Positions 903 to 50,560 of a DNA stretch of 64,000 nt are shown here, piece after piece. The DNA is from Mytilus galloprovincialis. Lineage: Eukaryota > Mollusca > Bivalvia > Mytilida > Mytilidae. The translations under genes were made by a program, and so were the position numbers. The number at the start of each line of letters is the position of its first letter. Position 1 is the stretch's first letter. A model generated the notes under the pieces. The model was not told the origin of the DNA. It saw only the letters and a program-made list of their open reading frames with translations, and did no database searches. Where the stretch lies: positions 62,083,078 to 62,147,077 of the forward strand of contig NC_134841.1 of NCBI RefSeq assembly GCF_965363235.1. Reading direction: 5' to 3'.

Positions 903-1020
903 TATGCGTCTAACCTGCTTTTCTGGTTTTACCTTCACCAGGAACTCCCAAAGTTGAATACTTGAAAGCCAAGATTGTATAAAAACTAAACGTTGAAGAG
1001 CTATATTACCAAAAAAGGAC
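880..1020 (-). repeat. Hammerhead-like repeat, family C copy
   Basis: Read on the minus strand, a short repeat contains the lead-in GCTCTTCAACG, then CTGGTGA (941-935), a stem-II-like GGT/ACC hairpin, a GAAA box and a GACGCATA end (910-903). The lead-in and end resemble the family A repeats elsewhere in the window. The core differs from the hammerhead consensus at A6 (CTGGTGA), so this copy is degenerate. Confidence 0.5.
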
Positions 1021-1250
1021 CTTACATATAGTTTTACTAAAATTTCTATAGTTAAATAAATTATTTAAATTCAAATAGTTCGTTAACTCTGATATTTAAA
1101 ATGAAAAAGATTTACGTTTGTAAAGTTTCAAATGGATGGATCCAACACTATGATCACACAAACACCGAACTTGTAAGATTTTCTTGAAAAGTAAGTATGT
1201 CATATTAAGCTCATGAATTTTGTTTTGTAAAATCACTAAAACAGAGTATG

Positions 1251-1845
1251 TTTGGCGTATTAAATTGTAATCCTGGTACCTTTGATAAATATTTACACCA
1301 CTGGGTCGATGCCACTGCTGGTGGACGTTTCGTCCTCGAGAGTATCATTAGCCCAGTAGTCAGCACTTCGGTGTTGACATTAATATCAATTATATCGTCA
1401 TTTTATGAATTTCCTGTTGACAAAACTTTGATTTTTTCGGAAAACTAAGGATTTTTTTCCCCCAGGAATAGATTACCTTAGCCGTATTTTGCACAACTTT
1501 TTGAAATTTTGGGTCCTAATTGCTCTTCAACTTTGTACTTGTTGGCTTCATAACTATTTTTATCTGAGCGTCACTGATGAGTCTTATGTAGACGAAACGC
1601 GCGTTTGGTGTATAAAATTGTAATCATGATACCTTTGATAACTATTTACACCACTGGGTCGATGCCGCTGCTGAATAACGTTTCGACCCCCAGGCTATCA
1701 CCAACCCAGTAGTCAGCACTTCGGTATTGACATGAATATCAATTATATGGTCATTTTATAAATTTCTTGTTGACAAAACTTTGATTTGTTTGGAAAACTA
1801 AGGATGTTCTTATCCCAGGAATAGATTACCTTAGCCGTATTTGAA
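1251..1845 (+). repeat. Hammerhead-like repeat, family A, 1.7-unit tandem
   Basis: The sequence starts inside a partial motif (TTTGGCGTA at 1251-1259), runs through a 353-bp unit to a full motif at 1574-1611, then repeats the start of the unit (CACCACTGGGTCGATGCC, CCCAGTAGTCAGCACTTC, TTAGCCGTATTTG) to about 1845. The two units differ by substitutions and small indels, so the array is old. Its layout, head-to-tail monomers of about 350 bp with one motif each, matches the loci at 12.76 and 17.7 kb. Confidence 0.75.
1574..1611 (+). ncRNA. Hammerhead-ribozyme-like motif (family A)
   Basis: The core CTGATGA is followed by GTC, a 7-nt loop, GAC, then GAAA, and a stem III of ACGC with GTGT (one G-U wobble) before the final A. 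The order and spacing match a type I hammerhead with a short stem III. The bases flanking the core do not form a clear stem I. Confidence 0.5.
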
Positions 1846-1939
1846 AAAAAAATAAAAATTTGAAAAAATTTGAAAAAAAAATGGAACCCCTTAAAAGATT
1901 GGAACCCCTTAAATTGTTTTTGAATCCCTCCTTGGAGCA

Positions 1940-2095
1940 ATTAATCCCACATTCAAACCCAGCCTTTCCTTTGTAGTATAGAACCTTGTAGTACGATTTC
2001 AGAGAGATCCATATTCTTTAACACGAGTTATTGTCTGGAAACTATAAAAATGCTTGTTTTTTACCCTTTTTTTGTCCCTAATTCCCGCATGAATT
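1940..2095 (+). repeat. Dispersed repeat fragment (TCTGGTATGGAACCTTGT family)
   Basis: The stretch around TAGAACCTTGTAGTACGATT, GAGTTATTGTCTGGAAAC and TTTTTGTCCCTAATTCC has diverged relatives at about 39000-39130 and 63095-63260. It has no coding capacity. The family's nature is unknown to me. Confidence 0.45.
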
Positions 2096-2130
2096 GCTCT
2101 CTGGTGAAATTATCTCATTTACAAGCATAC

Positions 2131-3057
2131 CACATATTCTTATTTTTTCATGTAAGATATAATATAAAATAAGGAGGAAGACAGCAGAGTTGCTGTAGTG
2201 TAATCACCTACCGTTAATATTTTCGTTGCTTGTAGAGTTCCTCGAGTCCCGTATCACATTTAATATCTCCTCTTTTGAATCTTTTATAAGTTGAGTTATT
2301 TCTAAAAGTAAACATGATTCTAATATATTTTTAGAAAAGTGCCATGAAAAGTTTATGTATGTCTCCTAAAAGATTTATTGGTACCACACGTATAGACTGT
2401 GTATTTCAAAACAATTATTGCGAATGTTAATACATTACAAAACCAATGTGAACAGAGTACAGTTATTTGGTTTGTATGTTCACAAACCTGTAGCCAGAAA
2501 CACCTAGTTTTAACTTTGTCCATCTTCAATTCAAAATACAATATGGAAAGGAATTATGTTGTCGTCCTTTGGATATTAACCAAATCAAAACAAAATCCTC
2601 GGAACCTATAGCACCGTGTTGCGCGCCACATGGTCCGAGACCACAACGTCCCTTGATTGATTTTCGAACGAATATAGTCCCTAGTGTTGACAGTGGGTTA
2701 ATTGCCAATGTTTTTATACCCCTTCCAAATTTATTTCTCCACATTTTATGCCTCAAATTGCAAGTAGGGGGTGAAACTACACTGTAAAAAAATTGGGTCC
2801 AGAATTTTAAAGGAAAGTAGTGATTTGGTCCAGCTGAAAAAGGTTGAAAATTAGCACTTCGGAAGCTGTCAAAAGATTTCAAGACGCCCTAAACATAGAA
2901 TTGTCCATATTTTGAGTTAGAGCCGATGAAGTTTTCTATAATTTTGATATAATTTCTCCAAAATGTAGTACAACACACATTTTAAAAATTTCATTGAGAA
3001 AGCATTTTTTATTTATGTTCTAAAAGAAATGCACTACGAAATAATTGTGTTCTCGGA
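2131..3057. other. Non-coding stretch, possible old repeat at 2526-2882
   Basis: No exon is supported. The 2526-2882 block is open on the minus strand for 118 codons, but its composition and lack of a recognisable domain make it more likely a non-coding repeat with a chance ORF. From memory it resembles a block common in mussel sequence, which I cannot verify. Confidence 0.35.
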
Positions 3058-4488
3058 CCACATGCAGGGTGTCGGTTATGTTGGACACGGGGTGTAAATT
3101 TCGAAGCGAAGAATAACTATCAAAGTAACTTAAAGTTCAAGTATCAATTTTTTTTTATTTTTTTTTTAATTCCTCGTACCATATAATGTATTGAATGGAA
3201 GGAACTGAGACATAATCCATTTCCTGCAAGCAGAAGCAGTTGTTTTCAGTGCTCTGTTTCCTCAAACACCTCTCCTTAGTTTTCCGTGTTGTAGATTTTG
3301 AGGCTTCATATGCAAATTTCTTGATAAAAAACTACTTAAGACGACATCCTCTCGAATCATTTATATAGAATTGAATTCCTATTATGGAATTCAACCAAAT
3401 ACCAGCTTCTTACTTAAAATTAACTGGTTATAAAACTAGTTTTTCATCAAAATATTAAGTGTTTTAGGGGTGTCAGATTTTGCGTCTCAAGGGGTAGAGG
3501 CTTTTAATGAAAAAAAAAATAGAGCAGATTTGCATATAAATCGGTCTGTATCTGATACTTTTTAGTTAACACACATCTACTGTATTATGATAACACATTA
3601 CAAACTAAAGGTACTTCATTTTGCCATTTTTTTAGTCTTATAAGACATGTGCTTTTGATTTCATAAAAAGTAAAAAATGACTCAAAATATTTTGTTTTAA
3701 AGCTTGAAAATTATTTCTTTTCCTTGTCAGTTACTAGCATGATCAGAAAAAGTCACAGCTGGAGGTCTGCTCTGTGAATTTCCTCCATGTTTCAGTGAAT
3801 TGAGCCACAGCCGTGACTATTTTCTGACCATGATAGTAACTGAAAGAGAAAAGAAATCATTTTCCAGATTTAAAACAAAATATTTTTTACTTTTTATGAA
3901 ATCAAAAGCACATGTCTTATAAGACTAAAAAAAAGGCAAACATTTAGTTTGTAATGTATCATCATAATATAGTAGATGTTTTTTAACTAAAAAGCATCAG
4001 ATATAGACCGATTTATATGCAAATCTATTCTATTTTTTTTATTATTAAAAGCCTCTACCCCTTGAGACGCAAAATCTGACACCCCGAGCAACACTTTTAT
4101 ATTTTGATGTAAAACTAGTTTTAAAACCAATTAATTTTAAGTAAGAAGCTGGTATTTGGTTTAAATTCCATGATAGGAATTCAATTCTATATAATTGATT
4201 CGGGAGGAAGTCGTCTAAAGTAGTTTTTATCAAGAAATTTGCATATGAAGCCTCAAAGTCTGCAACACGGAAAACTAAGGAGAGGTGTTTGAGGAAAAAG
4301 AGCACTGAAAACGACTGCTTCTGTTTGCAGGAAATCGATTATGTTTCAGTTCCTTCCGTGCAATACATTATATGGTAATAAGAATTCTAGAAAGAAAAAA
4401 AATTTTGATAATTGAACTTTCTTTGATAGTATTTCTTCGCTTCGAAATTGCCACCTCGTGTCGATCATAGCCGACACCCCGCATGTGG
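3058..4488. repeat. 1.43-kb foldback palindrome
   Basis: Two arms of about 700 bp (3058-3762 and about 3806-4488) are inverted copies separated by a spacer of about 45 bp near 3785. Matching landmarks include CCACATGC..GGGTGTCGG at the left tip with CCGACACCCCGCATGTGG at the right tip, the TTCGAAGCGAAG block, the AAACACCTCTCCTTAGTTTTC block, GGGTGTCAGATTTTGCGTCT with its complement, and CAGTTACTAGCATGATCAG with its complement near the centre. The arms look roughly 85-90% identical by eye, with small indels. No transposase is encoded. It may be a foldback-type DNA element or a one-off inverted duplication. A transcript across it would form a very long double-stranded hairpin. Confidence 0.85.
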
Positions 4489-4914
4489 CGTTCTACAAGG
4501 TGTATATAGTGTCTCGCCTTAGATTGCTGCTGTCCATATAAAAGTGTAATGCTGATCGCCAAAACCTATCTCAGTGAAATGTTTAGCGGATACTAAGTAT
4601 ATATGCAAGTGTAAAAATCATAATAATCCTGAATATATGTAATGTATATATCTATGTCAGTATCCTTCAAATTCACTTACTGTTGACCTGTTGAAATAGT
4701 TCATGATACAAAATGTAATGACGGCATTCTGCTCTGTTGACAGCTTATCTTATATCCACTGAGGTGATATTCGGAATTCAGTTATGTAATAGAAGGTACA
4801 GCTGTGCATGCACTAAATCTGTGTCATGGTTTAATTCCAAAGATTCTTTGTTTTTCTTTTACAATAGATAGACGAGTTTGATTAGGGATCCCTTTGCCTG
4901 ATTGCTATATATAT

Positions 4915-5145
4915 AATAACTCTAATATTTACACCACCAACTCCCTGAATACGATTACCTCAGCTGTATTTGGCAATACTTTTAGGAATTTTGGTCCTCA
5001 ATGCTCTTCAACTTCAGTTTTTACTTTATTTGGCCTTTTTAACATTTTTGGATTCGAGCGTCACTGATGAGTCTTTTGTAGACGAAACGCGCGTCTGGCG
5101 TATATAGTCCTGGTATCTTTGATGAGTTTATTTATTTACAAAGTT
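4915..5145 (+). repeat. Hammerhead-like repeat, family A, partial monomer
   Basis: The copy includes the ATTACCTCAGCTGTATTTGG block, AATGCTCTTCAACTTC, the complete motif at 5064-5102 and the downstream TCCTGGTATCTTTGATGAG tail. About two thirds of a unit is present. Confidence 0.7.
5064..5102 (+). ncRNA. Hammerhead-ribozyme-like motif (family A)
   Basis: CTGATGA, stem II GTC/GAC with a 7-nt loop, GAAA, and stem III ACGC/GCGT followed by A. All conserved core positions match the hammerhead consensus. The flanks (GAGCGTCA before, TATAGTCC after) give only one obvious stem I pair. Confidence 0.55.
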
Positions 5146-5578
5146 ACCTCATAATGTTACGTACGTTAGAAGAGATTACACCTTACCCAAAAATATTTGC
5201 ATCAAGGAACATTACTTCTAAATTATGCATGCTTTCCAGTAGCGCTAAAAAAAAACACAATTTTGAACAATTTAGTTTCATCTTGATGGGGACCGAAAAC
5301 ACAATTTTCAGTATTCAGGGCATGCACTAGACTTGCTACCTGTCCCTTCCTAATTATGTTTTTTTCTTTTTTTTTTCAATTTGCCCCTTTAATAATTTTA
5401 CTGCTCTAACTAGGAGATTACAATTATTCTGACATCTGCTCCAAGGGCCATCAGTAGGCTGGCACTTATCAGTAAACATATAAATTAGTAAGAGAGAAAT
5501 AATAGAAAGGGAATTATAGCAAGTCCAAGCATGCACCAGCACACAAACACGAGACCAGTGAGGCATTTTAATTTATTC

Positions 5579-5761
5579 TCAATAGGCTGAATATACATGT
5601 TTATGCTTACCAAAAGACTGGATATGCCCTTTTCCTTTTTCTTGCCCTATAGAAAATAGAAGATAGCTCATTCCGATCGCAAACGAATATCCTAGAATTA
5701 ATCCGCTGACTGTATATACCAACGTACGATTGTTGGTCCAAAATGTCTGTATTCGCCCCAT
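5579..5761 (-). CDS. Possible first exon of a signal-anchor membrane protein
   Basis: The reading frame starts at an ATG in good context (A at -3, G at +4). It gives a short basic/polar head (MGRIQTFWTNNR), a hydrophobic span (LVYTVSGLILGYSFAIGMSY at about residues 14-33, extending into LLFSIG) and a polar stretch. A consensus donor (G then GTAAGC) falls after about 51 codons, in phase 1. The topology suits a type II Golgi enzyme such as a glycosyltransferase, but the sequence alone does not identify a family. No partner exon was found: the nearby open frame at 5354-5566 does not join in frame. It could also be a chance ORF. Confidence 0.3.
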   Translation of the reverse strand: MGRIQTFWTNNRTLVYTVSGLILGYSFAIGMSYLLFSIGQEKGKGHIQSFGKHKHVYSAY

Positions 5762-5770
5762 GTTTGGTGC

Positions 5771-6640
5771 TTGTATAATAACTATCCGTGATGCTTGTAG
5801 CTGACTTCTGCGTGTATCATATTAATCAGGTTTTTCCTAAATAAATACGTGCGACATTAAGAAAGCCACATGAAGTAATTAAGAGTACTTTGTACTTCAT
5901 ATGATTTATAAGTAATTCATGTTAATACTAATTTTTAGTGCAGACGACGGAAAACATTAATTAGTTTCTAGATTTACATTTTCTAACCGCAGCATTACGA
6001 TATTTTAGGTCAGTTTCTACATAATGTATCTAATACAAATAACAGATATACAGATAATACAAATACTAGTCACATGTACATGAACAATGATAGGGACAAC
6101 ATGTACAAAATGTTTGAATACATGTTTAGTGGAATGAGAGATGGACATTATTAAGTAATAAGAAATAAAGGTCTTTTTGTTGACATTTTTAAATATTTGA
6201 TTTTTGGTTAAACATGTTAAACTAGGCAAAATAGATAAGCCTAAGAATATTTGTAAGAAATTAAGTTTTTTTAATATTTTTCATATTATCATGTAGATGT
6301 GTTAAAAGAAATATGATAGATATTATAATGTGTATACATATAATATACCTGGGAACAGTTAAAAATAAGAAGGTTGGTAAAATTGGATAACTGAGATCAA
6401 ACTGACAAAAGAGAAACTTAAAAGTGTTATTTTATATGTTAATTGTTTACCATAAATCATAAGGCAATGACAAAATTTACCATATTTAATATATATTAAA
6501 AAAGTAATTCATAAACAATCATTTTAAAGTTGGAATTCAACATGTTTAATCAATATATTTGGATGTAAGTGTAAAGAAATAATTTTAAAACAGAAAATAG
6601 AAAAGAAAAAAAAACAAACATTTTTTACTTGCTTGTTCAA
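5771..6640. other. AT-rich non-coding stretch
   Basis: No exon or RNA gene is seen. The right part, increasingly A/T rich towards 6900, may be the 5' untranslated region of the LINE that follows, but no boundary or ORF1 can be placed. Confidence 0.4.
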
Positions 6641-6948
6641 AAATTTTGAGTTATCTTTCTTTGTCCTCAGATATTGTTTAAATGATGACATATTGTTTAT
6701 TGCTTGATATTTCTTATATGTACAAATGTATGGTAAATGTTTTGAAATATGAATATATCATATATATGACAATGAAGAGTTTTATATTTTAAAGATAAAC
6801 CAAAGTCATCTTCTTAAGTCAATAATTGGCAGTAGAAAAACTCAAATGAAAACTATAACAATGAAACTTATAATGATTTATTTTCAGACCATTTATTTAA
6901 TTATTTTACAAAAACATTTAGTTTACCAAAAAAAAAAGAGGAAGGAAT

Positions 6949-11900: not shown

Positions 11901-11906
11901 CAAAAA

Positions 11907-11987: not shown

Positions 11988-11999
11988 TGACTATAATGT

Positions 12000-12745
12000 T
12001 CTTAATAAGGAGCTATATTGGTACAATTCAGAGATGTTACAATTTTTTCATTAAAAAGTTTTTTTTATATATATAATAAGGACACACTAAACCAATTTTA
12101 ATTTTTAGGGAAAATGTAGTATAAATTGCCATAGTCACGTAAACATAACTTTTTTTGGTTTAAAATGTCCTTCTTGAGGGATTCCCTGTTGTCCCACCTA
12201 AAACACCCTAAATTCCGCATATTGGACTTTCATCTTTTTTTAGGGTTAAATTAAATATTTATCACACATATCATAATATATGTAAATCGAGATATTGATC
12301 AAAAGGCATTTTTATTTTTTATTTTTATAGTAAATTTCATTCTGTTGGCACTTTTTGAAATTGGCCCTACCTCTTTTGCCAATTGAAGCAATTATATATT
12401 ATGAAACTGCCTTGAACAATGAGACAAGCCAATACCCTATACAGTCAGTTACGATAGGACCCGATATAACAACAATGAAACGATTAAAACTCATTCATTT
12501 CAAACGGGATAGCACATCCTCATTTTTACGGAGATGTTGTTTACCGTGCCCGGAAATTTAGAAACGATCCTGGTAAACTTAATGATCCTTTGAATAAACT
12601 CATTCTGAAAGGTTACCAATTCAACACTGTAATTAGATCTTTGAATATTGTTTTTATTGGTATTAATATTGATTTTTTTATCAGTAAATTAAAAACATAC
12701 TAAGTATAATTGTTATATACATATACACTTTCATTGATCTACAAT
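12000..12745. other. Unassigned stretch
   Basis: A weak coding-like block at about 12360-12620 reads as short pieces in several frames and may be a transposon remnant. Nothing else is recognisable. Confidence 0.3.
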
Positions 12746-12749
12746 CTGT

Positions 12750-13165
12750 CGAAACCTGTGTAGACGAAACGCGCGTCTGGCGTAAATACGTGTCTATGAT
12801 GAGTTAATTTACAACCACTTGGTCTATGCCACTGTTGGTGGAGTTTAAATTCCCCGAGGGAATCACCAGTCCAGTAGTCAGCACTTCTGTCCTGACATAA
12901 ATTATTATTGATATGGTCATATTTATAAATTAACTGTTTACAAAACTTTTGTATTTTTGACATCCTAAGGCTTTTTTACCTCAGAAATAGATTACCTTAC
13001 CCGTATTTGGCAAAACTTTTAGGAATTGTGGTCCTCAATGATCTTTAACTTCGTGCTTTAGTTGGCCTTTTTAACTTTTTTTTATTTGAGCGTCACTGAT
13101 GAGTCTTTTGCAGACGAAACGCGCGTCTGGCGTAAATACAAAATTTAATCCTGGTATCTATGATG
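12750..13165 (+). repeat. Hammerhead-like repeat, family A, 1.1-unit tandem
   Basis: The left edge carries a motif lacking its CTGATGA half (GTAGACGAAACGC at about 12760). One full unit follows, ending in a complete motif at 13096-13134. The shared GCGCGTCTGG strings at 12771 and 13121 set the period at exactly 350 bp. The unit contains the GTCTATGCCACTGTTGGTGG, CCAGTAGTCAGCACTTC and ATTACCTTACCCGTATTTGG blocks in the same order as the copy at 1.25 kb. Confidence 0.75.
13096..13134 (+). ncRNA. Hammerhead-ribozyme-like motif (family A)
   Basis: CTGATGA, GTC/GAC stem II (loop TTTTGCA), GAAA and ACGC/GCGT stem III with a terminal A. The core is intact. After the predicted cleavage position the sequence continues AATACAAAATTT, which does not pair with the upstream GAGCGTCA. 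Confidence 0.55.
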
Positions 13166-17400: not shown

Positions 17401-17789
17401 TTTGATGTTGTCAATACAAGTGTTCAAGCATTAAATCCTAGACATCAGTGATAAAATTAGATCAGCCTTAAATTCAATGATATTGGCCGGTATGATTAAG
17501 ATCGAATTTTAATCATGTTTGGTGGACTTATAGAGACGGCTTTATTCAAAACAATCGGCGATTGCATTGGCTTGAGTGTTCAGGATGGACAAGTGTAATT
17601 ACTCAAGCCCAGATTGCTTCATCTGGAAAAGCAGATGCGTTTTTTAAAGCTAGCCATTCAACAAGAACACGACGTGCGCATCAAGTGACAGCTTACACGG
17701 ATTTGGCTATACTTTTTGGACCTTTTGGATTATAGCTCTTCATCTTTTATATAAGCTTTGGATTTCAAATATTTTGGCCACGAGCATCA

Positions 17790-17828
17790 CTGAAGAGACA
17801 TGTATTGTCGAAATGCGCATCTGGTGCA
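17790..17828 (+). ncRNA. Hammerhead-ribozyme-like motif (family B)
   Basis: CTGAAGA (position 7 is variable in hammerheads), stem II GAC/GTC with loop ATGTATT, GAAA, then TGCGCATCTGGTGCA. Stem II has the reverse base pairs of family A at the same spacing. Stem III is weakened (G-U pairs and an A-C mismatch at the 15.1-16.1 position). Confidence 0.45.
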
Positions 17829-18139
17829 AGAAAATTGTTACCGTTAATTTTATTACTACCACTGGGTCGATGCCTCTGCTGGTGGACTATTAGTCCCCGA
17901 GGGTATCTCCAGCCCAGTAGCCAGTACTTCGGTACTGGCATGAACATACGGATTTTTTGTGTTATTAAAATTTGCTGTTACAAAATATTAGAAATTATTA
18001 TAAATTAAGGAATGTATCTCCCTCATGCAAAGCTCTGATTCCTTTCATGGATTTGGCTATACTTTTTGGACCTTTTGGATTATAGCTCTTCATCTTTTAT
18101 ATAAGCTTTGGATTTCAAATATTTTGGCCACGAGCATCA

Positions 18140-18178
18140 CTGAAGAGACATGTATTGTCGAAATGCGCATCTGGTGCA
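18140..18178 (+). ncRNA. Hammerhead-ribozyme-like motif (family B), second unit
   Basis: Identical core and stem II to the motif 350 bp upstream. The two predicted cleavage points would bracket exactly one 350-nt monomer. Confidence 0.45.
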
Positions 18179-19400
18179 AGAAAATTGGTACCGTTAATTT
18201 TATTACAGTATGTTTATTCTTCTCAAGGCTGCGTACAATAAATTTCTTGAAAAAGAAAACCTGGAGAAACACTAAGTTTTTAGGAATTGTATATGCGAAT
18301 GAAAAGCCAAATTTTAATTACTGGAATTAAACCATTAAACTTATACTGGACGCATGACTTTTAATAGAGCAATCAGAGAAGGAAATGTCAAGTTGCACAT
18401 AGAAACTTTCAGTAAGATCCTTCCTCGGTTTTTTGCCCTTGACTATATTCATTTTTCCAGGTGGTTACCAGTTCGTGTGCGTGACATGGCTACACTTATG
18501 AACACGATTCCTGACACTTACACAGCATTTTCTAACGGAAAGAGTGTAATTAGTAAGTCAAAGAAAATGTTTCCGGCAATAGCTATTGATCATGCGCATG
18601 AACAAAACAATGATGTTGTCAAGTCAGATAGAGCCGCTTTTGGATTAACAGAAAACCCAACAGCCCTCTGAAATGGATGATTGCTTGACCAGAAATGGAA
18701 AGACTTGCTAAAGAGTTTGAGAGCTGCATAGATTAATTTCATGATGAAAAGGAAATAAATCACCATCAGGAGCAAAAGGAAAGTGTTCAAATGTCGTTTG
18801 ATGTAACCTTAATGGTAGACGTGATAGACGAGGTAGGAAATACATTTCTCGAAGACAGCAACGAACTGCTTGCACTAGATACTAAAGATATAGCTACCTC
18901 AGCAGAAGTTGAGCAACCACAAGGAGCAAACTTTGACGAGTTCTTCAAACAAGAAAATCATATCCACCTACCAGAATTTTGTCGGAATGGAAACTTAAAT
19001 CGTATCACGTATGAATGGAAACAAAAATCTGACTTGCTTACAAAGACACGGACACAATCAACTAGTGATGTACCCAATGTAGAAACTATAGTTATTGATG
19101 GTGCAGCTGTTGTTAATATGTTAACACATGGAGCCTCTTGAACTTTTAATGGATATTCAGGGACAATAGTTTGTCTATACATTAGGAACTAGCTTGATAG
19201 TGTACAACGAGCTGATGTTGTGTGAGATACCTACATAGATTAACAGTTTAATGAATGCTACAAGAAGTAAGAGAGGGACCGGGATAATTAAGGAGACGTG
19301 TTCAGGGGCAAACATGCGTACCAGCTTCTTAAGTGTTATAAAAACAAAACAGTACTTTTCAATTTCTGACATATTTCTAGTATTTCAGTAATACAAAGTT

Positions 19401-23252: not shown

Positions 23253-26200
23253 TATTATTATTACAAGGCATTTATATATAGCGCATTATATAAAAATACA
23301 ATTACTCTAAGCGCTTTACATGTTAAAACAAAAGTACACAAGTTCGTACATACACGAAATTACAAAGTTAAAAATATACCGAAATATGTATAAAGCATAC
23401 ATCATATCAACTATAAAAAGTTAAGACTACAGCAACTTGGTAAAAAAATACTTAAAAGAATTATTAATGAATAAGTATAAATTTGAATAACTAAATATTT
23501 CTAAATTTGTTGAATTTTGTATTTAAAAATAAGTTACTAAAATATTCCATATACAGAAACACATAAAATCAGAATAAAATGTACAAAATATTAAAAAATC
23601 AACATCAGTCAAATACAACAAATCACAGTTCCAGGTCTTAACTTATGAGCGATCCACACATGCAACTTTGAATAGATGCGTCTTTAGTCCTTTCTTAAAT
23701 AGTTCTAGCGATTGTTCATTTCGAAGATTTGTTTGAAGGCTATTCCACAGAGTCCCGGCCGCCACATCGAACCTCCGTTCACCATACATTTTGGTCCCTG
23801 CATTTTTTGGCATCTCAATTAAAGAAGCATTTTCAGATCGCAACGATCGTGCTGGTTTGTAAAAATGTATTAGTTCACTAAGATACGAAGGTGCAAGTCC
23901 ATGCAAGTCTTTGAATGCGTAAAGCAACAGTTTGTACTGGCATCGGAATTTGAATGGTAGCCAATGAAGAATCATAAGTGTTGGAGTTATATGTTCAAAC
24001 TTCTTTTTGCGTGTTCTGAACACGATGAAGTTTGGATAGACTCGAGGCATTAACACCATACATCAAAGCATTACCGTAATCAAGTCGCGACGTAACAAGA
24101 GAACATACAAGAGTTTTACAAGCGTCCTCCGTTATATATGATCGAATCCGTCCTATGTTACGAATCTGATGGAAACAGGATTTGGTAATTGCATTTGTCT
24201 ATTGCTGCATGCTGAGGGTTTGATCGAGAAAAACTCCAAGATTTCGAACACAGGTAGATGCACTTAGTATAGTTCCGTCAAAATTCAGTTGTAACTTACT
24301 AAGACTTTTGACTTTGTGTTTTGGAGCAAAAACAATCAATTCGGTCTTGTCCTGATTTAACTTCAACATATTTGTACACATCCAATTTTTGATATCTTCC
24401 AAACAAGCTTCTAGGCGCTCGGTAATGTCATCCCAGTTATCTAATGGCTTGATGACTTGGTAAATTTGCGTATCATCCGCATCACTGTGGTATGCCATGC
24501 CATGCTTCTTACATATTTCACTAACCGGGTACGAAAACATGGAGTGAAGTCTCGGTCCAAGCACGGAACCCTGTGGGACGCCATAGTTCAGAACCATTTT
24601 GTCGGAGTGAACAGATCCAATAGAGACACATTGCGACCTATTAGTCAAGTATGAACGAAGCCACGACAAGGCTGTTCTAGATATACCAAAAGTATACTGT
24701 AGACGATCGAATAGAATGTCGTGATCGATCACGTCGAACGCTGCTGAGAGATCCAACATCAGCAATATTACACAAGAGTTGTTGTCGAGTGCGTATGTAA
24801 TGTCATGATGAACACGGATCAGTGCTGTTTCAGTTGAATGTCCGGTGCGATATGCTGACTGCATATCGTCATGTAAAGAGTTCAACATGATATGAGATCC
24901 AAATCTCGTGTCAACAACTCTCTCGACAACTTTGGATACAAATGGCTAGTTTGAAACTGGGCTGTAATATTTTAGAACTTCTTTGTCTAGGTTCGCTTTC
25001 TTAAGTGATGGCCACACAACTGCCTCTTTGAAAGTTGAAGGTACTATTGATTCAGCCAACGACATGTTCACTATGTTCGCAATGACAGGCGCTAGAGTGT
25101 CTATGCACTCTTCGAGAAGGTGTGTTGGTAAAGGGTCCAGATCACAAGATTTGGATGGCGCTTTCAGAATAATTTTCTTGACTTCTTCGAGTGTTGCAGG
25201 AGGTAGAACATGTAAATGCACGCCTTTGAATTTCTGATCAGCTGATAGATAATTTCGACTTCCCGACATTTCGCCAATCGATGCATATAATCCATTTCGA
25301 ATGGTATCAATTTTACCAAGAAAAAATTCACAAAACCTATTTGCTAAATCCTTTTCATCATAAGACAAAGGGAGAACCACTTCACGCTTGTTCCTCATTA
25401 AATCTCCAGTTATTTTATGTAACTGTTTCTGATTGTTACTGATCTCGGTCTCTTTTACATTTTAGAAGCTGTTTATTTGTCTGGAGACACTTTTCTTTGT
25501 AAAGGAGTAGGTTCAGTAAGACCCCTTTTTGGCCTCAAAATATAGCAGTTTTAGAAAATTGTGAAAATGTAATCGTTTAGATATTTATTGCAAAGTAGAA
25601 TGCCTCTGCTTCATAAATATGGGCTGTTTTTGACAACACAATGCACATATATCGGGTACTAGCATCATTAAGTCATGCTAAATTACTGAAATCTTCACAA
25701 TTGTAGCATTTTAGTTAAATTTTAGACGGTTTCCGTCTGAAATGAAAGTGGCCGCATTCGTGTTCATTCATAATAATGAAATGTAAGTTGTATTTGATGA
25801 TAATACATAATATATATAAAGGTTGAGGATGAACACGGATGCGGCCACTTTCATTTTTGACAAAAACCATCTGAAAAGTGACGATTTTTGGCATATTTGA
25901 TAGATTTTTCATATTTAAGCTTGAATCGGGGCGTTTTAAATGACTTATTAAGTTAAAATCTTCCACATTAACGAATTGAATCAATTGAAATAGACACTTA
26001 AGTGTTTAGAAAGTGTCTAAAATCTTTCGTTAGATGAACTTCAAAATTGAGGCCGAAATCGGCCCTTACCGGACCTACTCCTTTGCTGATGCACTGTCAA
26101 TTTGGTTTTTCGCATTTTTCGCTCCGCCCTCCGACGTTCCATTTTAGAGTTTCGTAGCTCATCGGTGTACCATTCAGTATTAGGTCGAATTGTTATTGTC

Positions 26201-33517: not shown

Positions 33518-34698
33518 AGGTCTTTCCACTTTTCGTTTTTCTTCTGATTATTTTTTTTTTCTGCCGTCTGAGATGCTTTTTTGTCTTACATTATATCGAA
33601 TGGATGTTTTGGCCAATAATGTTGTACAGTAATGGGGGTTTCAAAACTCATCCTGTGTTACCGAACACTTATTCTTATAGGAGTTATCTCCCCGTGTCCC
33701 TTTTTCTTGTTATAGCTATATCTCTTAAACTATAAAAGATTTTAGCAAACTGTTTTCACCAAATTGTTCGTCTACTCTTGAGAATGATTTGGTTTATTTT
33801 GACTTGAGTGATCGGAAGACATCTTATGGGAGTTATTTCCCTTTGAAAATTCAAGATAGGCGATTTGTTGGATAAATTCATACGTTATAAGTCGTAGAGG
33901 CCTACAGTCTTTTGATATGAAATCTTTGGTCCATTTGAAGGAAATTGAGGTCAAGGTCAAATTCATGTTCTAAATTTTGAATTTTGCTTGTTATCGTTAT
34001 TCCATAGAAACTGTGACAGTAAATGATATGATGTGTTTGCCAAATAACTGTTTACAATAAGGCGCAACTTCAACCTATTTCAGTCAAAGTGTTTTGGTTA
34101 ACCCTTATAGGAGTTTTCTCCCCTTATGTATTTCAAATCAGTATTTCTCCACAACCATACAAGTGATTGACCTCCAGTCTTCCGTTTTGAATTCACTGAC
34201 CTATGACCTTGAAATAAAGATCAAGGTCGAAGTTCAAGGTCATGTTATAAATTTTGAATTTTGCTTGTAATCGTTATTGAAAAGAAACTGTTACAGTTAA
34301 TGATATGATTTGTTTGCCAAATTACTGTTTACAAAAAGGCGCAACTTCAATCTATTTCAGTCGAAGTGTTTTGGTTAACCCTTATAGGAGTTTTCTCCCC
34401 TTATGTATTTGAAATTAGTATTTCTCCAAAACCATACAAATGATTGACCTGGGGTCTTTTGATTTGAGATCACTGACCTATGACCTTGAAATTGAGGTCA
34501 AGGTCAATTTGACGTTCTAGATTTTGACCTTTGCTAAAAATTATTTTCTGTTCGTACTAAAACAATTAAGTCTTCTACATATACCTATTAATCTTATTTT
34601 TTTATATCAATTCGAAGAACCAAATTACATCAACAAGGAGTGACATTTTCTAACATCGTTTTTTAAATTTCATTCTTATTATCGAGGTGGAAAGACCT
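33518..34698. mobile_element. TIR-bounded element with internal 283-bp tandem repeats
   Basis: A perfect 12-bp inverted pair bounds the block: AGGTCTTTCCAC at 33518-33529 and GTGGAAAGACCT at 34687-34698. Inside are about three head-to-tail units of roughly 283 bp, marked by CCCTTATAGGAGTTTTCTCC (34094 and 34378), ATTTTGAATTTTGCTTGT (33975 and 34252) and repeated GACCTATGACCTTGAAAT. No transposase is present. No clear target duplication is seen, so the TIR may be coincidental with an array edge. Confidence 0.55.
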
Positions 34699-35424: not shown

Positions 35425-35480
35425 CGTCATACGCAATGTTCTAGGTTTAACTTCACCAGGAAAGCCAAAACACAAACAGA
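35425..35480 (-). repeat. Degenerate hammerhead-like fragment, family C
   Basis: The minus strand reads CTGGTGAAGTTAAACCTAGA then TTGCGTATGAC, matching the family C copy at 903-941 in the core, stem II side and 3' end. The core is further decayed. Confidence 0.4.
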
Positions 35481-36589: not shown

Positions 36590-37625
36590 TAGAAAACTAA
36601 ACATTGACTAATGAACCATGAAAATGAGGTCAAGGTCAAATGAACCATGCCAGACAGGTACAGCTAACAATTCTTCCATACAACAAATATAGTTGACCTA
36701 TTGCTTATAGTTTAAGAAAAACAGACAAAAACACAAAAACTTAACAGAGCAATGAACCGTGAAAATAAGGTAAAATAAAACCTGCGTGACTGACTTATAG
36801 ATCATAAAATATTTCTATTCACCAAATATAGTTGACCTATTGCACATAGTATTAGACAAAAAGACCAAAACTCAAAAACTTAACTATAACCACTGAATCA
36901 TGAAAATGCAGTCAAGGTCAGATGACACCTGCCAGCTAGACATGTGCACCTTACAATCATTCCATACACCAAATATAGTGTATACCTATTGCATACAGTA
37001 TAAGAAAAACAGACCAAACACAAAAACTAAACTATAACCACTGAATCGGGAAAATGAGGTCAAGGTCAGATGAGACCTGCCAGTTGGACATGTACACCTA
37101 ACAGTCCTCCCATACACCGAAAATACTAGACATATTGCTTATAGTATCCGAGATATGCACTTGAACACAAAAACTTAACCTTGTTCACTGATCCATGAAA
37201 TGAGCTCGAGATCAAGTGAAAACTATCTGACGGGCATGAGGACCTTGCAAGGCACGCACATACCAAATATAGTTATCCTGTTACTTATAATAAGAGAGAA
37301 TTTAACATTATAAAAAAATCTTATTTTTTTTTTTTCAAGTAGGAGGACCTTGCAAGGCACGCACATACCAAATATAGTTATCCTGTTACTTATAATAAGA
37401 GAGAATTTAACATTATAAAAAATTCCTATTTTTTTTTTTCTCAAGTAGTCACTGAATCATGAAAATGAGGTCGACATTGGACATGTGACTGACGGAACTT
37501 CATAAAATGAGGCATCGATATATAAAGTACGAAGCATCCAGGTCTTCAAACTTCTTAAATATATAACTTTTAAGAAATTAGCTAACACCGCCGCCGGATC
37601 ACTATCCCTGTGTCGAGCTTTCTAC
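36590..37625 (+). repeat. Tandem array, ~145-bp unit, with GAGGTCAAGGTCA
   Basis: About six diverged units carry ACTGAATCATGAAAATGAGG, TCAAGGTCA, a TGCCAGNTGGACATGTACAC type block, ATACACCAAATATAGT and TTAACTATAACCACTGAA. A 105-bp direct duplication (GACCTTGCAAGGCACGCACA at 37241 and 37346) lies at the right. The array ends in a block with GCTAACACCGCCGCCGG and TGTGTCGAGCTTTCT. The same array, end block included, occurs inverted at 56975-57935. Confidence 0.8.
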
Positions 37626-43457: not shown

Positions 43458-43559
43458 GATTGTCTTGTAAATTAACGGGGACTCGCCGTACTTTGGGCGA
43501 ACTGTCCCTATATTCCTGATCTAATATACGAAGTATCAAAGATGGCTGAGGATCAACAT

Positions 43560-43745
43560 CGACTTGAAACGTCGTTTTATTGGTTCATACCAATCACATG
43601 AGCAAGGCAAAACAAAATGTTATTTTTAGTACGGAAGACGTCATACTTCTTAAATTTAATTGGTCAATTATTTTAGGATACCCCAAAACAATCATTTCAG
43701 AATTTCACTCACGAATTCGAACCAATCAGAAATTGGGATACAAAA
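43560..43745 (-). promoter_or_regulatory. CCAAT-rich upstream region of the Mcl-1-like gene
   Basis: Within about 160 bp just upstream of the gene are four clear CCAAT boxes in both orientations (ATTGG at 43579 and 43659, CCAAT at 43590 and 43732) and a CRE-like GACGTCA at 43637. The first two form an inverted pair, ATTGG-6 nt-CCAAT. This is a plausible NF-Y/CREB-type promoter by motif only. No transcription start can be placed. Confidence 0.45.
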
Positions 43746-44280
43746 TAAAACCAGAAATAGCTGAAACTTATACAGGGTTGTCCTTCAGGAAGAAGTCGAT
43801 TAAAAAGTTATAAGAAATCCCTAACGAATCCTGATTCTGTTGGTAAGATATTGATCAATCTATTTCCTTACGTGTAACAAACTAAACTACGGGACTAATC
43901 GACAGACATAAATAGATGGTATACTGTAACTATGAGGAAAGAAAAGGGGGGGAGGTTTGAATCAAAACAAACAGAAGTTAGAACAAGAAATGAGTGTTGA
44001 TCTAAAGTTTTTTTAAACTGAGTGTTATTCATAGCCTTCGTACAATTTCAGAAAAGTATCCCAAGTACATGTATCTGACAGAGACTTATTAATTGGTAGC
44101 CAAAGAAACATACACATGTAAGATGCATATATTATATATATAACAAAATTAACATGCATGACATGTATAAACTATACATTTTTGTACATAAACTATACAT
44201 TTATGGAGCTGCATATAAACTGTACATCTATCATTTGTCTATTGAGATCATATGCAAATAAACTGACTTTGCATCTGTTA
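43746..44280. other. Unassigned stretch between the Mcl-1-like gene and an I-type LINE
   Basis: Nothing is recognisable except short AAACTATACATTT repeats near 44165-44225. Confidence 0.4.
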
Positions 44281-44284
44281 AAGT

Positions 44285-45800
44285 CATCCTCAATCCTCAA
44301 TCTTAAGGCCTGTTGGCACGAATTGTCCCAATGTGCGGTTATCCTCTCTGGTGCGTTTTCCTTGACGTATTTTCTTCTCTGTGCTTTAAATTTGGTATGC
44401 GCTGGTTAAGATTGGAATTGAGGAACAGCAGTATTAAATCTGCCCGTTCTGTCAATGTAATGTGCCACTGTTTGTAATTTGGCTTTTGTCTCTTCTGTGT
44501 TCTCGCCGTCCAGTCTCGTTAGCATAGTAGCTAAATTCAAGTTTCTGACCCCAACCTCTTTGGATATTTGGTGTAGCATATCTTCTCGTTCGTTTTCATA
44601 GCCGGGACACTCCAGAAGGAAATGTTGAGGGGTTTCAGGTGCTCCACAGTTGCATGACTCTATGGCGTTGGTTTGGCTTACTCGGTTCTTGTAGTAATTC
44701 AGTTCTGTATAGCCAGTTCTTAGTTGGGCGAATATACTGAAATGTCTTTTAGTTGGAAAATCATACATAATTGAGTGTTTTGTAGTTTGTATTTTTTCAT
44801 AAAGGTCCCTGCCTCTCTCAGATATTTCCCATCTTCTCTGCCATGTCTGCCATTTATTTTCTGTTCTTTTGTACGCTGCTTGTTTGACGTTCTGTAGTGT
44901 TATGATGTTATTTTCCGGTGGTAATTCTTTTGCTTCCTCTGATGCTGTTTTTGCAAGGATGTCTCATCATTACCAGCTATGTTGGCATGTCCTGGTGTCC
45001 ATGATACAATTACATTGAGTCCTTTTTGCCTAAGATGTTCAATATTTTCTTTTATTTCTCTTATTACGGAGATGTAGCTGTTTGGGGCCCAGTTCAGTGT
45101 AAGTAATCCCACAGCGCTTTGACTGTCAGAGAAAATTTTGATTCTTTGTATTGCATTGTAGATGTTTTCTGTAATGCAGTATTCTAGGACGATGAGAATT
45201 GCTATGAGTTCTGCCAGAAGGATGGATCCTCTTTGTGCCACAGGTTTATGTAATCTGGCAGCAGGTTTAATGTGTTCAGCATAGATAATTGCACCTGCTC
45301 CACAGGGTCCTGGGTTCCCTAAGCATGATCCATCTGTAAACGATATTGCTTGTTCTTGTGTGCAGTCTCCCATGAGTTGGTAAAGGGTTTCCTGGCAAAG
45401 TTCTTGTTGCTCATTTGTCTTCAATTTTGAGTTGCCTAGTCGACTCCAATATAGAGGTTTTGATTGAGTCATTTGAGTTTCTCCCAGTCTGTAGGTAAAC
45501 TCTGGTTCTATGAGATTGATGTTTATCTTTGTCTGTTTTTCCATTTCTGCTGCTTGGCTTAGTGCTTTGCCCATTGGTGTTGGATACTTGTCTTATGCGT
45601 CATGTTCTTCATACCTTACAAGTTGCTGTTTGATTCAGGTTCCTGTGCAGATTTTGGATTTAATCTTTGCAATCTCTTTAATGGCTATTTGTTCTAGCCT
45701 CAGGTCTATTGGCATAACTCCTGATTCTACTTCTAGTGCTTCTCTGCCAGATGTTGTAGGCATATCCATACATAGGATAAGTGCTTTTCTCTGTACTCTG
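44285..45800 (-). mobile_element. I-type LINE fragment with RNase H domain
   Basis: This is the 3' third of a non-LTR element on the minus strand. Order: an RT-to-RNase H linker (QRKALILCMDMPTTSGREAL, 45800-45640), then an RNase H domain (45574-44900) with ISFTDGSCLGNPGPCGAGA (first Asp), LLAELIAILIVLEY (Glu), IKIFSDSQSAVG (Asp) and SWTPGHANIAGNDE (His and last Asp), so all catalytic residues are visible. A C-terminal block (44768-44406) has CNCGAPETPQHFLLECPGY, a CxC..H..C zinc-knuckle-like motif. An RNase H after the RT is typical of the I group. The fragment has at least two frameshifts, and its 5' end is cut by the TIR element starting at 45800. The 3' tail has repeated ATTGAGG near 44290. 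Confidence 0.85.
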
Positions 45801-46354
45801 TCATAAGAAATGAGTGACCGGTGAAAAATAATGTTCTTCCAATTCTTGAACCAATGCATACAAACATAATTAACTTAGTCTTCTGTATTTTTTTCGTGTA
45901 AATTTGGTATAATCGTCAATTTTTTTTTCAATCGGTCAGTGTTGTGAAAATTTGGCAGGTAATTAAAGTTTGTGTTTTGAAGCGGAAGTTTAACGATTGT
46001 CACCTGTTTGTCAACAATCGACAAAAAATCAACAAAAAAGCATGGAAATTGAGCACGTGTTTAACATGTAAATTCAGATAATAGTTTATTTTAAGGACAT
46101 CCATGGGTATTGTGATCTGACACCGGATTTTTACGAGATGGGTCACACTGAGGTCACTTTGCATAAGGAAAATATGTCGGGGGAGGAAGCAATTAAAATA
46201 AAGTAAACTTCTTCTAAATATGAATAATTTAAAGAATTTTCTTCAGAAAAAAGTATATATATATGTACATAAGTTTTGTAATGAAAACTATCCATTGAGT
46301 TATAAAAAAACATATGCATTATTTTTTTTGATTTGAGGTTTCTTATGACTTTAA
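45800..46354 (+). mobile_element. Non-autonomous TTAA-type DNA element, copy 1
   Basis: A 555-bp copy of the element at 57933-58504 shares TTCTTGAACCAATGCAT, GAGCACGTGTTTAACATGTA, CACCGGATTTTTACGAG and AACTATCCATT..AAACATATGCAT. The right end is GTTTCTTATGACT followed by TTAA. The left end (GTCATAAGAAA) lacks the TTAA. It contains no transposase. Confidence 0.7.
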
Positions 46355-46359
46355 GAGGG

Positions 46360-46755
46360 GGTCTTATGGGGGAGTGGTTCTGATCCTGCTTACTGTTTTG
46401 TCAAATTCCTGTATCCTGCTTACACCATGAATGTAAAGATTCTCATTTTTTTTGTTATTTCCCGTGTCCCGCTAGACTTCATTTCCTGTTTCATGGCACA
46501 ATATTTTGACTTTCACATGTCACGCTTACAAAAAATCAGCAATCCTGCGTCACACTTAGACCGTGGCAAAGCAAGACCTTTTATAAGTGTAAGCCTGAAC
46601 CTAGGCAAGGGGTTTGAAGGCCCCCAGCAGCCCCAGGATCTCCAGGTCGGGGACAAACCCCCCAGAAGCTCATGCTGTATTGTGAAAAAGATTCCATTTC
46701 TGTCATTCAAAATTCATCAATAACAACATACTTGATCAGTTGAGAACAAAACATT
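46360..46755. other. Unassigned stretch
   Basis: C/G-richer than its surroundings (CCCCCAGCAGCCCCAGG near 46620). Open frames here have no domain. Confidence 0.35.
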
Positions 46756-47170
46756 ACTACATAGGAGAGATTTCAGCTCCCCAGTTGTTAACTTTCCATT
46801 TCTTTGTAGTACTTTTAACATTCCAGTAGAACCTGCATATGGAGTATACATGTACAGTAGTTGTCGTTTGTTTATGTAATATATATGTGTTTCTCATTTC
46901 TCATTTTTTATATAGATTAGACCGTTGGTTTTCCCGTTTGAATGGTTTTACACTAGTAATTTTGGGGCCCTTTATAGCTTGTTGTTCAGTGTGAGCCAAG
47001 GCTCTGTGTTGAAGGCTGTACATTGATCTATAATGGTTTACCTTTTTTTAAATTGTTATTTGGATGGAGAGATGTCTCATTGGCACTCACACCACATCTT
47101 CCTATATCTATGTGTATATCTCCCAGTTTATACAATATTTTAGAACTTGCATTTCCCATCATGATTTCCT
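46756..47170 (+). mobile_element. Penelope-like fragment interrupted by an AATCATACCACATCTTC-type repeat
   Basis: The plus strand first gives a decayed C-terminal Penelope-like stretch (TTAACTTTCCATTTCTTTGT, 46788), then a copy of the dispersed repeat at 46845-47105 (GTTGGTTTTCCCGTTTGAAT to CACACCACATCTTCC), then the rest of the Penelope-like stretch (ISPSLYNILELAFPIM). It is old and broken. Confidence 0.6.
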
Positions 47171-47955
47171 TGAATGAGGTTGCTACTTCCAAGGAAGCTA
47201 TTGAGGTAAACAAAGTAAACTTAGCTACGCATCTGACCTTCATGAAGAATAAAGGTAAAAAATCTTGCCAAATGACATTAATGGTAATTTTACAAAATGC
47301 ACATGAGATGCATATTCATGTATAACATTGTATAAACAGTACATTTGTAAGACACATTGTACATGCGTGTTCATCAGTTTATATATATTTTCACAGATGC
47401 ACATTTTAAATGTATCTCCAGGAAGGACATTTAATATACATTGTACAGCTTTTCAGATGTACAATGAATCTAAAGTTTATATACAGCTTTGCAGATGTAC
47501 AATGAATCTAAAATTTATATACAGCTTTACAGATGTACCATTTATTTACATATGTACTTATATACATTTAAACATGTTAAATGCACCTAAATAAATGTTC
47601 ATCAATAGTGTTTGTATTAAAGTAGCTGTGTATTGTAAATTGAATGTCAGGATGTTGTTAAAAATATGTAAATCACTGGTAAAAAAAACTGTGTACATGT
47701 ATTAAGGCTATATAAACTTATTGTTGGATTCCACTAATTGCCAGGCCTTTCATTTTTTTAACAGATGAAAAAAACTACTCTCTTTTAAATAATAATGACA
47801 ATTATCCCTAGTGCTTTATCTGATACCAGTAAATAAAAGACAGCCATAACCTTTAAATTTGGAGCTAGAGTTATCTCTCTTTGTACATACATCGTCATGT
47901 ATGTTTACAAGTTTGACCACAAGTAAAGCAGCAAAGCTCTTATTGACTTTTAGAA
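47110..47955. other. Non-coding stretch with a 38-bp tandem repeat
   Basis: CAGATGTACAATGAATCTAA recurs at 47454 and 47492, with a partial third unit at 47530, giving a 38-bp period. No coding signal is seen. Confidence 0.5.
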
Positions 47956-47957
47956 AA

Positions 47958-48121
47958 AACAGAGGCGGATTTAGAGGGGGGGCCCAGGGGGCCCGGGCCC
48001 CCCCTTTTTAGGAAAAAAATTGGTTGCTTATATAGGGAATCACTGAAGTGTGACTGGAGCGGGCCCCCTCTTTTGTCAGTCAGTGGGCCCCCACTTATGA
48101 AAATTTCTGGATCCGCCACTG
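47958..48121. mobile_element. Short TIR element (CAGGGGCGGATCCAG family)
   Basis: Ends are CAGAGGCGGATTTAG and CTGGATCCGCCACTG (inverted), 164 bp, G/C-run rich inside. It is flanked by A-runs that could be a 5-bp duplication. Confidence 0.7.
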
Positions 48122-48129
48122 AAAAAATC

Positions 48130-48444
48130 ATGCATCATAATTACTGGTCAATGAAATCAACATCACATGTCATTCTTTTTAAGGGTTATAATGAAATAAT
48201 GTTTCGAAAAACTTTTCTGAGCCTTTTATATTTATACACTAGATACATGTACATGTACGATGTATGTCTATATGTAGGCAGGCATGAAGGTTAAATACAC
48301 AGTTTGTTTTTATATTGTGGTTTATACAAAATATGTAAGTAAAATGATTAAAAATGTATGTTGTATTTAAAAAAGAGATATGAAATTGAATAGTATTAGA
48401 AAGGTCCATTGTTTTCTTAACAGAAAATCATTTTATATTTCCAG
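48130..48444 (+). other. Upstream intron/5' region of the BH3-like gene
   Basis: Non-coding and AT-rich. It ends in a good acceptor (TTTTATATTTCCAG at 48444), which implies a spliced 5' leader whose earlier exon was not located. Confidence 0.45.
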
Positions 48445-48459
48445 TAAACAATTGACACT

Positions 48460-48933
48460 ATGGGATCTCCTGCCTCAGATGATGAGGAAGCTGAAGAACC
48501 AACCCAGGTACATGTACCACAGCATTTGTCAGATCATTTAAAAGTTCAAGCAACAGGAGAATCAGTCAAATTCAATAAACGGCCAAAATCTGCAGATGCT
48601 GCTACTAGAACTGTTGATTCCACACAAAATAATAGTACACAAGATTTACAAAATCAAAACCCAATATCAAATCAAGAAAGACGATCTTCACTTCCGCCTG
48701 GATTATTAGAAAATGGCGAGATAAATAGTTTATGTGGACAAATGTTACGATACATGGGTGATGAGCAATATTCTATGGCTTGTGGTCGGCATTTAAGATG
48801 TATGGGTGACCAGTTATGCTACAACTACTTCATTAGAAATGTCATCAGAAGTTCAGGAGAGTTTCAGCACCAGAATCAAAATTCTCATGCTTTGACAAAT
48901 TCCAATTCAACACCAAATTTATCAAAGAATTGA
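48460..48933 (+). CDS. Candidate BH3-only apoptosis protein with two BH3-like helices
   Basis: This is a 157-aa protein from one coding exon. The ATG (A at -3, G at +4) lies 15 nt after a clean acceptor at 48444. Residues 1-85 are acidic then polar and Gln/Asn/Ser rich, and look disordered. Residues 91-104 read LCGQMLRYMGDEQY and 107-121 read ACGRHLRCMGDQLCY. Both fit the BH3 pattern (hydrophobic, small, LR..hGD). In the second, Cys108, Leu112, Met115, Asp117 and Leu119 occupy the h1, h2, h3, Asp and h4 positions as in BIM. The first lacks a good h4 residue. The helices are 16 residues apart, like an internal duplication. The tail (125-157) is polar with no membrane anchor. It lies divergent to, and about 5 kb from, the Mcl-1-like gene. 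BH3-only function is inferred; no homologue was searched. Confidence 0.7.
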   Translation: MGSPASDDEEAEEPTQVHVPQHLSDHLKVQATGESVKFNKRPKSADAATRTVDSTQNNSTQDLQNQNPISNQERRSSLPPGLLENGEINSLCGQMLRYMGDEQYSMACGRHLRCMGDQLCYNYFIRNVIRSSGEFQHQNQNSHALTNSNSTPNLSKN

Positions 48934-50355
48934 ATGAATGATTAATTGGGTGCCAGTTATGAACATGTACTCAGTATCTATACCCTTTATGTCAACTTTA
49001 GTTGGTGTATTTAAGCGTATCAGCATGAAAATGAGTTTTTTTGGAACATGATTAGACCAGTAAAATGTACTGTGTCTACTAAAAAAATAGTGGGATAACA
49101 TCCTTGATATATATATATATATAGGGTCAGGATTTAACACGTACGTTGCACATTAGTTACTGAGAAAAGTCGAAAATCATGCAATTACCACACCGTTATA
49201 AAAAAATCCTGGGGAGAACACCGACATTTTTTTTTAAATAACATGTAGAAAATTTAATTAAAGAAATAAACAAAGTCAGTCGGAAACCATATTAAACAGA
49301 AAATATTATTTTTGGTCTGATAAAATTATAGACTATCCAACATTGTCCAAATGGTTTAATTAATTTCACACATAGATTTTAATGCAGCATGAATGTTTAT
49401 GATGTGTATTGATAGAAAAATATGTTATAAAAAATTGTACTTTTATTTTGAAATTTTTATTGGCATTTGGTGTGAAAAATTTAAAGCAGGCATTATTTTT
49501 TTTTATAGGAACTTACAGGTGCTTATGTTGAATTTAACTCCTTTCCTACCTCAACATCTTTAAGAGCCTTTAAAAAATGAAACCTTTACAAATGAAAGTC
49601 CATAGCATTGTTTACAATGGGAGACAACTCAATCATTTTAGGTGTATTAAGTAAAGTTATTCTAACATATCAAAGATTATATGTACATGTATAAAATATC
49701 AAAATATAGTTGTTGTATCTCAATCTGTCAAAAAAAAATTAAGACTTATGTAAAATATTTAAACATTAACTATAACATGTTGTTTATATTTAAGCAAATA
49801 TGTACATGATGTACATACTATGTAAATTTTTACATGTTGATATATGTTAATGTAATACATACATAGATTGTTATTATTAAATTATTTAAAAATGAAATTA
49901 TTCACTTTATTCATTATAAGTAGTGTATATTCAGAATGACTTTTAAGTATATATCAATTCAAAGATAAAAGGAAATAGAAAAAATAAAGGTCTTTTGGTA
50001 ACAGTCCTGTTCACTGAAACACACTTCTGGGCTTGTGACCTTGGTACAGATTTGAGGATTAAACTTTTTATGGGACAATTCACATTTTATCTTTTTATGT
50101 TTTTGGTGTAAATACTCAATGAGGTCATGTCAATGTCATTAAGAAAGCTTTGCCACTTACAACAAACAACAAATAAAGGCAACAGTAGTATACCACTGAT
50201 CAAATTGACAATAGACATAATTTGATAATTCCGAATACAAATTGGGGTAACAAACTTAAACTGAGGGAACACATCAACTATTATGAGCGATTTTCAAATC
50301 TTATAAATCATAACGTTTGGTTCAGACAGAGAAAGCCAAGGTGAACAAACTACAT
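48934..50355 (+). other. AT-rich 3' flank of the BH3-like gene
   Basis: Non-coding. Contains ATTTA-rich sequence and AATAAA-type signals (near 49265 and 49983) that could end the transcript. A TA microsatellite lies near 49108. Confidence 0.4.
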
Positions 50356-50357
50356 GT

Positions 50358-50560
50358 AAGTAAGGTAAATAAACTCATCATAGATACCAGGATTGAAATT
50401 TTATATTTACGTCAGACAGCGTTTCGTCTACAAAAGACTCATCAGTGACGCTGGAAATCAAAAAATGTTAAAAGGCCAAAAAAAGGAAGAGCATTGAGGA
50501 CCAAAAATTCCTAAAAGTTTTGCTAAATACAGCTAAGGTAATTTAGAGCAAAACCCTTGA
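50358..50560 (-). repeat. Hammerhead-like repeat, family A, inverted copy
   Basis: On the minus strand: AGCTGTATTTAGCAAAACTT, TTTTTGGTCCTCAATGCTCT, the motif at 50446-50408, then ATCCTGGTATCTATGATGAG. A partial monomer. Confidence 0.7.
50408..50446 (-). ncRNA. Hammerhead-ribozyme-like motif (family A)
   Basis: CTGATGA, GTC/GAC stem II with a 7-nt loop, GAAA, and stem III ACGC against ACGT (three pairs kept), then A. Confidence 0.5.

Follow-up and report, generated by a model that had tools for sequence, protein, structure and literature searches.

Short repeats in the genome of the mussel Mytilus galloprovincialis are type I hammerhead ribozymes carried in units of about 350 nt, that is, retrozymes. 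Hammerhead retrozymes are already known from this species, as the main text of PMC7229834 describes, and what is new is how their copies begin and end. Here we report an analysis of a 64,000-nt stretch of the genome (C4:62083078-62147077, hereafter the window) and of the 1.385 Gb, 331-contig genome searched with it, in which most mapped copies share one 3′ end zone downstream of the ribozyme cleavage site and have scattered 5′ ends. We consider it probable (about 0.7) that the repeats are non-autonomous metazoan retrozymes and that an RNA circle is reverse transcribed from one internal start site.

The window contains six strong and one decayed hammerhead cores, plus one decayed copy of a third family, C (Table 1). 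The cores of families A and B lie at the positions given in a sequence-only reading of the same DNA. The pattern CTGANGAN{8,25}GAAA matches ten times in the window, six of these matches being the A and B cores, against a mean of 3.19 in shuffled sequences, none of 100 of which reached ten. A descriptor of the full type I fold (exact core, stem II of at least 3, stem III of at least 2, an NUH triplet and stem I of at least 5 bp) found five places in the window against none in 100 dinucleotide shuffles, and missed the copy at 50445, in which one stem III base has been lost. A first-guess pattern for family C found 0 places, and CTGGTGA at 35459 on the minus strand has no significant likeness to two family C copies.

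Table 1. Hammerhead cores and repeat copies, with positions counted from the first letter of the window
Feature	Position	Strand	Contents
Family A cores	1574, 5064, 13096	+	
Family A core	50445	-	
Family B cores	17790, 18140	+	
Family C copy, decayed	882..1022	-	core region 901-950; pairs: stem I 4/6, stem II 3/3, stem III 1/4
Family A copy, about 1.7 units	1250..1843	+	hammerhead 1565-1616; central domain 1649-1736; 3′ end at unit 239, one of the 13 exceptions to the common 3′ zone
Family A, subfamily A′, 5′-truncated copy	4953..5123	+	hammerhead 5055-5106; aligned part stops at unit 34, followed by the A′ tail GAGTTTATTT
Family A′ copy, slightly more than one unit	12735..13164	+	two hammerheads: decayed 12735-12788 (24.9 bits), intact 13087-13138 (75.9 bits)
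Family B copy, about 1.5 units	17692..18206	+	hammerheads 17781-17832 and 18131-18182, cores identical; central domain 17857-17944; 3′ end at unit 35
Family A′ 5′-truncated copy	50365..50545	-	hammerhead 50404-50454, one stem III base lost

At Rfam gathering scores, the whole window gave no match. Below gathering, Hammerhead_1 scored 32.5, 32.5 and 27.2 bits against a threshold of 34 (E = 3.4e-4, 3.4e-4 and 0.02), the 32.5-bit matches being those at 5058 and 13090, and Hammerhead_3 scored 30.6 bits against 48.5 (E = 0.016) at 50416-50454; both B cores are absent from the matches up to E = 10. The best score for RF00163 (Hammerhead_1) is 32.5 in the window and 33 in locus L053, below the gathering score of 34, and its consensus agrees with the units described here in the ACGcgCGUC stem III and the cleavage triplet. 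Schistosome and newt satellites are members of RF00163. Model R1, for which 33 A and B cores were used, found seven places in the window at E below 1e-4, all from the families behind it, and did not detect the C copy on the minus strand. In a held-out test, the same model detected five of ten C loci at E below 1e-3.

The window also holds other repeats, and a tRNA search of it found none. A long AT-rich inverted repeat at 3622-3938, which scores 70.8 bits for MIR2646 against a gathering score of 245, is perhaps a MITE-like hairpin, and another inverted repeat (25723-25875) has a sub-threshold MIR161 match on both strands. Two 277-nt tandem copies with 88% matches occupy 33948-34507, and more tandem pairs lie at 37238-37448 and 51529-51638. 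Tandem arrays of ~150-nt units at 36593-37138 and 57357-57906 share text in opposite orientation, with CTATATTTGGTGTATGGA in one array and its reverse complement in the other.

Genome-wide, exact matches to the A core pattern number 21,838, with a tandem spacing of about 355, and those to the B core pattern 4,106, with a tandem spacing of about 350; many of the places among the first 100 matches listed are ~350-356 bases apart. Family C gave 637 candidates at a first look, and all 40 that were scored matched. Unit A is 356 nt long (GC 0.385) and unit B 350 nt (GC 0.374), and the longest open run in the tripled unit is 86 codons for A and 90 codons for B. As in metazoan non-LTR retrozymes, the units are short and tandem, carry a type I hammerhead, have a GC content under 45% and contain no protein gene.

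In an older assembly, about 5000 type I hammerheads in two families of 350-390 bp repeats are described for M. galloprovincialis, together with a cloned unit that self-cleaves with a kobs of ~0.1 per min and with circular RNA in Mytilus (PMC7229834, main text). Compared by description with those Mytilus non-LTR retrozymes (Cervera and de la Pena 2020, PMC7229834), the repeats reported here include the third family C, decayed in the copies examined, are more numerous, in that the A core pattern alone exceeds the hammerhead count given there, and combine a fixed 3′ end with 5′ ends that are scattered; the terms 'truncat' and 'target site' are absent from the main text of that paper. Our literature search found no paper mapping the ends of animal retrozyme copies, and a search of papers for the core letters gave 0 matches. 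Plant LTR retrozymes, as outlined in PMC7229834, are alike in having hammerheads in direct repeats and circular RNA and, unlike the units here, have type III ribozymes and an LTR; they are also described with a PBS and a PPT, which metazoan non-LTR retrozymes lack. Penelope-like elements, with atypical type I hammerheads, share the type I hammerhead and the tandem copies, and the same account proposes them as the source of the retrozyme enzyme (PMC7229834); they differ from the units here, whose longest open run is 86-90 codons. In its treatment of metazoan repeats, a 2020 review finds nothing conserved that points to an autonomous element or its machinery, and notes that neither kind of retrozyme seems to carry promoters (PMC7761336).

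In the correct register, stem III of the ribozyme is an 8-nt palindrome after GAA (ACGCGCGU in A, AUGCGCAU in B and AAGCGCUU in C), and the cleavage triplet GUC, AUC or UUC directly follows it. Stem I is then paired over 6 bp in all six A and B cores of the window, where the search asked for at least 3, and shows compensatory changes between the families. At least five of its six pairs form in 48 of 52 A and 40 of 41 B cores, so the statement of the sequence-only reading that no copy has a well-paired stem I is wrong for these two families; stem I had appeared poorly paired because stem III was read one register too far downstream. That earlier stem III, in which ACGC pairs with a downstream GCGT, does pair fully in 41 of 52 A cores but takes up the 3′ strand of stem I. 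We rejected this register, which gives three of four pairs in 38 of 41 B cores and at most two of four in C; the structure as a whole pairs 86.4% of cells, and 80.8% in its stem III, since most A copies allow it.

A strict fold count, which asks for stem I at 5/6 or better, stem II at 3/3, stem III at 4/4 and an NUH triplet, was passed by 39 of 52 A cores, 38 of 41 B cores and none of 8 C cores. As the A and B cores had been chosen by the core and intact stem II letters, stem II is no test in these counts, and stems I and III and the triplet are; the eight C cores are those of the window copy and of the seven of ten loci that fitted the script pattern, which the other three loci did not. The identification as type I hammerheads with a very short stem III, of the kind found in animal retrozymes, is thus supported. 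Decay, which the sequence-only reading had offered together with reuse as an explanation, is rejected for most A and B cores, the majority of which pass the strict count, and does describe the C copy of the window. Five 44-nt cores folded in isolation did not adopt the hammerhead as their lowest-energy structure (z-scores -0.74 to 1.15).

A covariation test of stems I-III, as the sequence-only reading had suggested, is consistent with this fold but shallow. The alignment comprises 74 cores (56 distinct), with one per A or B locus, all C cores found and all cores of the window, and 93.1% of its cells are paired, a share that drops to 13-50% if the partner is shifted by 1-3 columns. Its placement of the shorter stem II of family C is wrong, so that C is scored as gap or unpaired at that stem. 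Two-sided changes occur at five pairs across stems I, II and III, and nearly all of them separate three or four families from one another. In its share of paired cells, its number of cells with two-sided change and its covariation score, the alignment exceeds all 500 shuffles; the number of pairs with two-sided change (5) and of pair types (14) are reached by 93 and 82 of the 500.

The ends of copies were mapped on 82 segments, taken from the window and from 60 loci on contig C1 that surround A and B cores, excluding segments within 60 bases of a locus end. Of the 82, 69 have their 3′ end in a single zone past the cleavage site (unit 15-48 in A, 15-42 in B), and 59 lie in a narrower zone at unit 31-46 (A) or 31-37 (B). 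Seven A segments stop at unit 25-26 and three at 18-24, and several segments that end at unit 25-34 belong to subfamily A′, whose tail departs from the query there. Among the 13 segments that end outside the common zone, L087 and L090 each seem to make up a single copy together with the segment that follows. Read by eye, the final letters are ...TTTGATAACTAT in A, ...TTAATTTTATTA in B and ...GAGTTTATTT in A′, and C copies at ten loci end about 30-38 nt past the cleavage site. Most tails stop sharply: GATAA is followed by no more than 7 nt in 25 of 31 A tails, and TTAT by no more than 6 nt in 25 of 40 B tails. The remaining six and 15, respectively, continue into the central domain described below. 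None of the 82 segments has its 3′ end at the cleavage site or within 9 nt of it, and a cleaved linear monomer ending there is therefore not the usual template.

The 5′ ends, by contrast with this constant 3′ end, are scattered across the unit, and the combination is that of target-primed (non-LTR) insertion, with its variable 5′ truncation. Segment lengths range from 38 to 1,228 nt (68 segments, not counting L094, which nearly duplicates L093); the 38-nt segment is a piece of a broken copy, and the next shortest has 62 nt. In segments that span one lap or more, the 5′ phase fits a uniform distribution in B (n = 15, P = 0.38) and is non-uniform in A (n = 13, P = 0.017), where there is an excess just over one lap. 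Of 48 A segments, five start no more than 9 nt from the cleavage site (expected 2.4, P = 0.10). One of these, L090, belongs to a broken copy; the remaining four measure 378-400 nt and are what one would expect from a linear template whose 5′ terminus is the cleavage site. The two ends match each other over at least 5 nt in 23 of 68 segments, against a shuffled mean of 12.7 (10 of 5000 shuffles as high). Matches of at least 7 nt (3 of 68, mean 1.4) are not in excess, and matches strictly outside the element number 7 of 68 against a mean of 4.1 (553 of 5000 shuffles as high). The excess of 5-6 nt end matches, present in the tolerant test only, could reflect short duplications or microhomology.

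Because these loci were picked by their core, unanchored word counts are the fairer test of the ends. A-family 24-mers, counted genome-wide with up to two mismatches and independently of the core, occur 30,532 times in the hammerhead, 30,036 times in the tail before the end, 10,272 times just past the end and 18,033 times in mid-unit; the words differ in conservation, so that the step, and not the ratio, counts as evidence. Exact words of 31 and 37 letters (6,746 and 2,102) agree in direction with the 24-mers.

In A and B, the 3′ ends fall a few bases short of a central domain, an 88-nt stretch that is common to A and B and is also found in one C locus (L105). This domain folds into a long stem and a 3′ hairpin, and in the 21 of 37 collected stretches used for the fold, three of 22 pairs are changed on both sides, two of these in about half of the 21 sequences. 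Within it (17857-17944 in the B copy of the window) lies GGGTCGATGCC, which we take to be Pol III B-box-like. The minus strand of the A domain contains a hammerhead-like stretch, which in B is without GAAA. The domain found no match among phage records; its first 16 letters occur in 27 stretches of viral contigs, which we take as chance.

We propose that transcripts running through the units would self-cleave at GUC or AUC, that the resulting ~350-nt monomers would be closed to circles, and that a reverse transcriptase supplied in trans would copy such a circular template, probably primed at the target. Copying would start some 30-47 nt past the former cleavage site, in an AU-rich stretch directly 5′ of the conserved 88-nt structured domain, which may be the landing site of the enzyme, and would run from a fraction of a lap to many laps, stopping almost anywhere. 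Such copying would make the 3′ end constant and the 5′ end variable, and the laps of a copy would have private variants in common.

The laps themselves were compared in 18 of 20 copies long enough for this, as two loci had two copies each, one of which was used. In 14 of the 18, lap 2 is closer to its own lap 1 than to lap 1 of any compared copy, with only 1-6 comparisons available for A copies. This likeness argues against a linear multimeric transcript, uncleaved or cleaved in part, as the template, with priming at that one internal site and no circle at any stage. We regard this alternative as unlikely even though it would suit both the four A copies of 378-400 nt that start beside the cleavage site and the four copies whose laps are not most alike (L040, L083, L085 and the A copy of the window). 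Such a template is also difficult to reconcile with the B array at C1:433303-448387, which has 44 cores at exact 350-nt spacing, begins at unit ~296 and ends at unit 34: its 33 whole units read identical (33/33; a 34th stretch runs into the flank), which would need an equally identical linear transcript of ~15 kb.

Long homogeneous arrays of this kind, and laps made alike by recombination, would also be expected of ordinary satellite DNA spread by unequal crossing over or circular DNA, with the hammerhead as a passenger. We find this distinctly improbable, as many of the sampled copies are short single pieces with unrelated flanks and a common 3′ end, the genome-wide word counts rise from the domain to the tail, and the ribozyme stems change in step between families. 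Decay of the ribozyme, or reuse of its structure for another role, is by far the least credible explanation of the shared core, for the failure of every C core in the fold count and the folding of isolated cores are outweighed by the A and B cores, most of which keep stems I and III and the NUH triplet along with the selected stem II.

A circle copied at the target from a fixed site, for up to at least 44 laps, might have laid down a 15 kb satellite array in one insertion, a tentative extension to which we give slightly less than even odds. In the main text of PMC7229834, the priming of circles and their return into DNA are left open. The mapped copy ends indicate a single start site, next to which lies a conserved domain; this makes the question of re-entry testable, and the scheme would offer a one-step origin for some satellite arrays.
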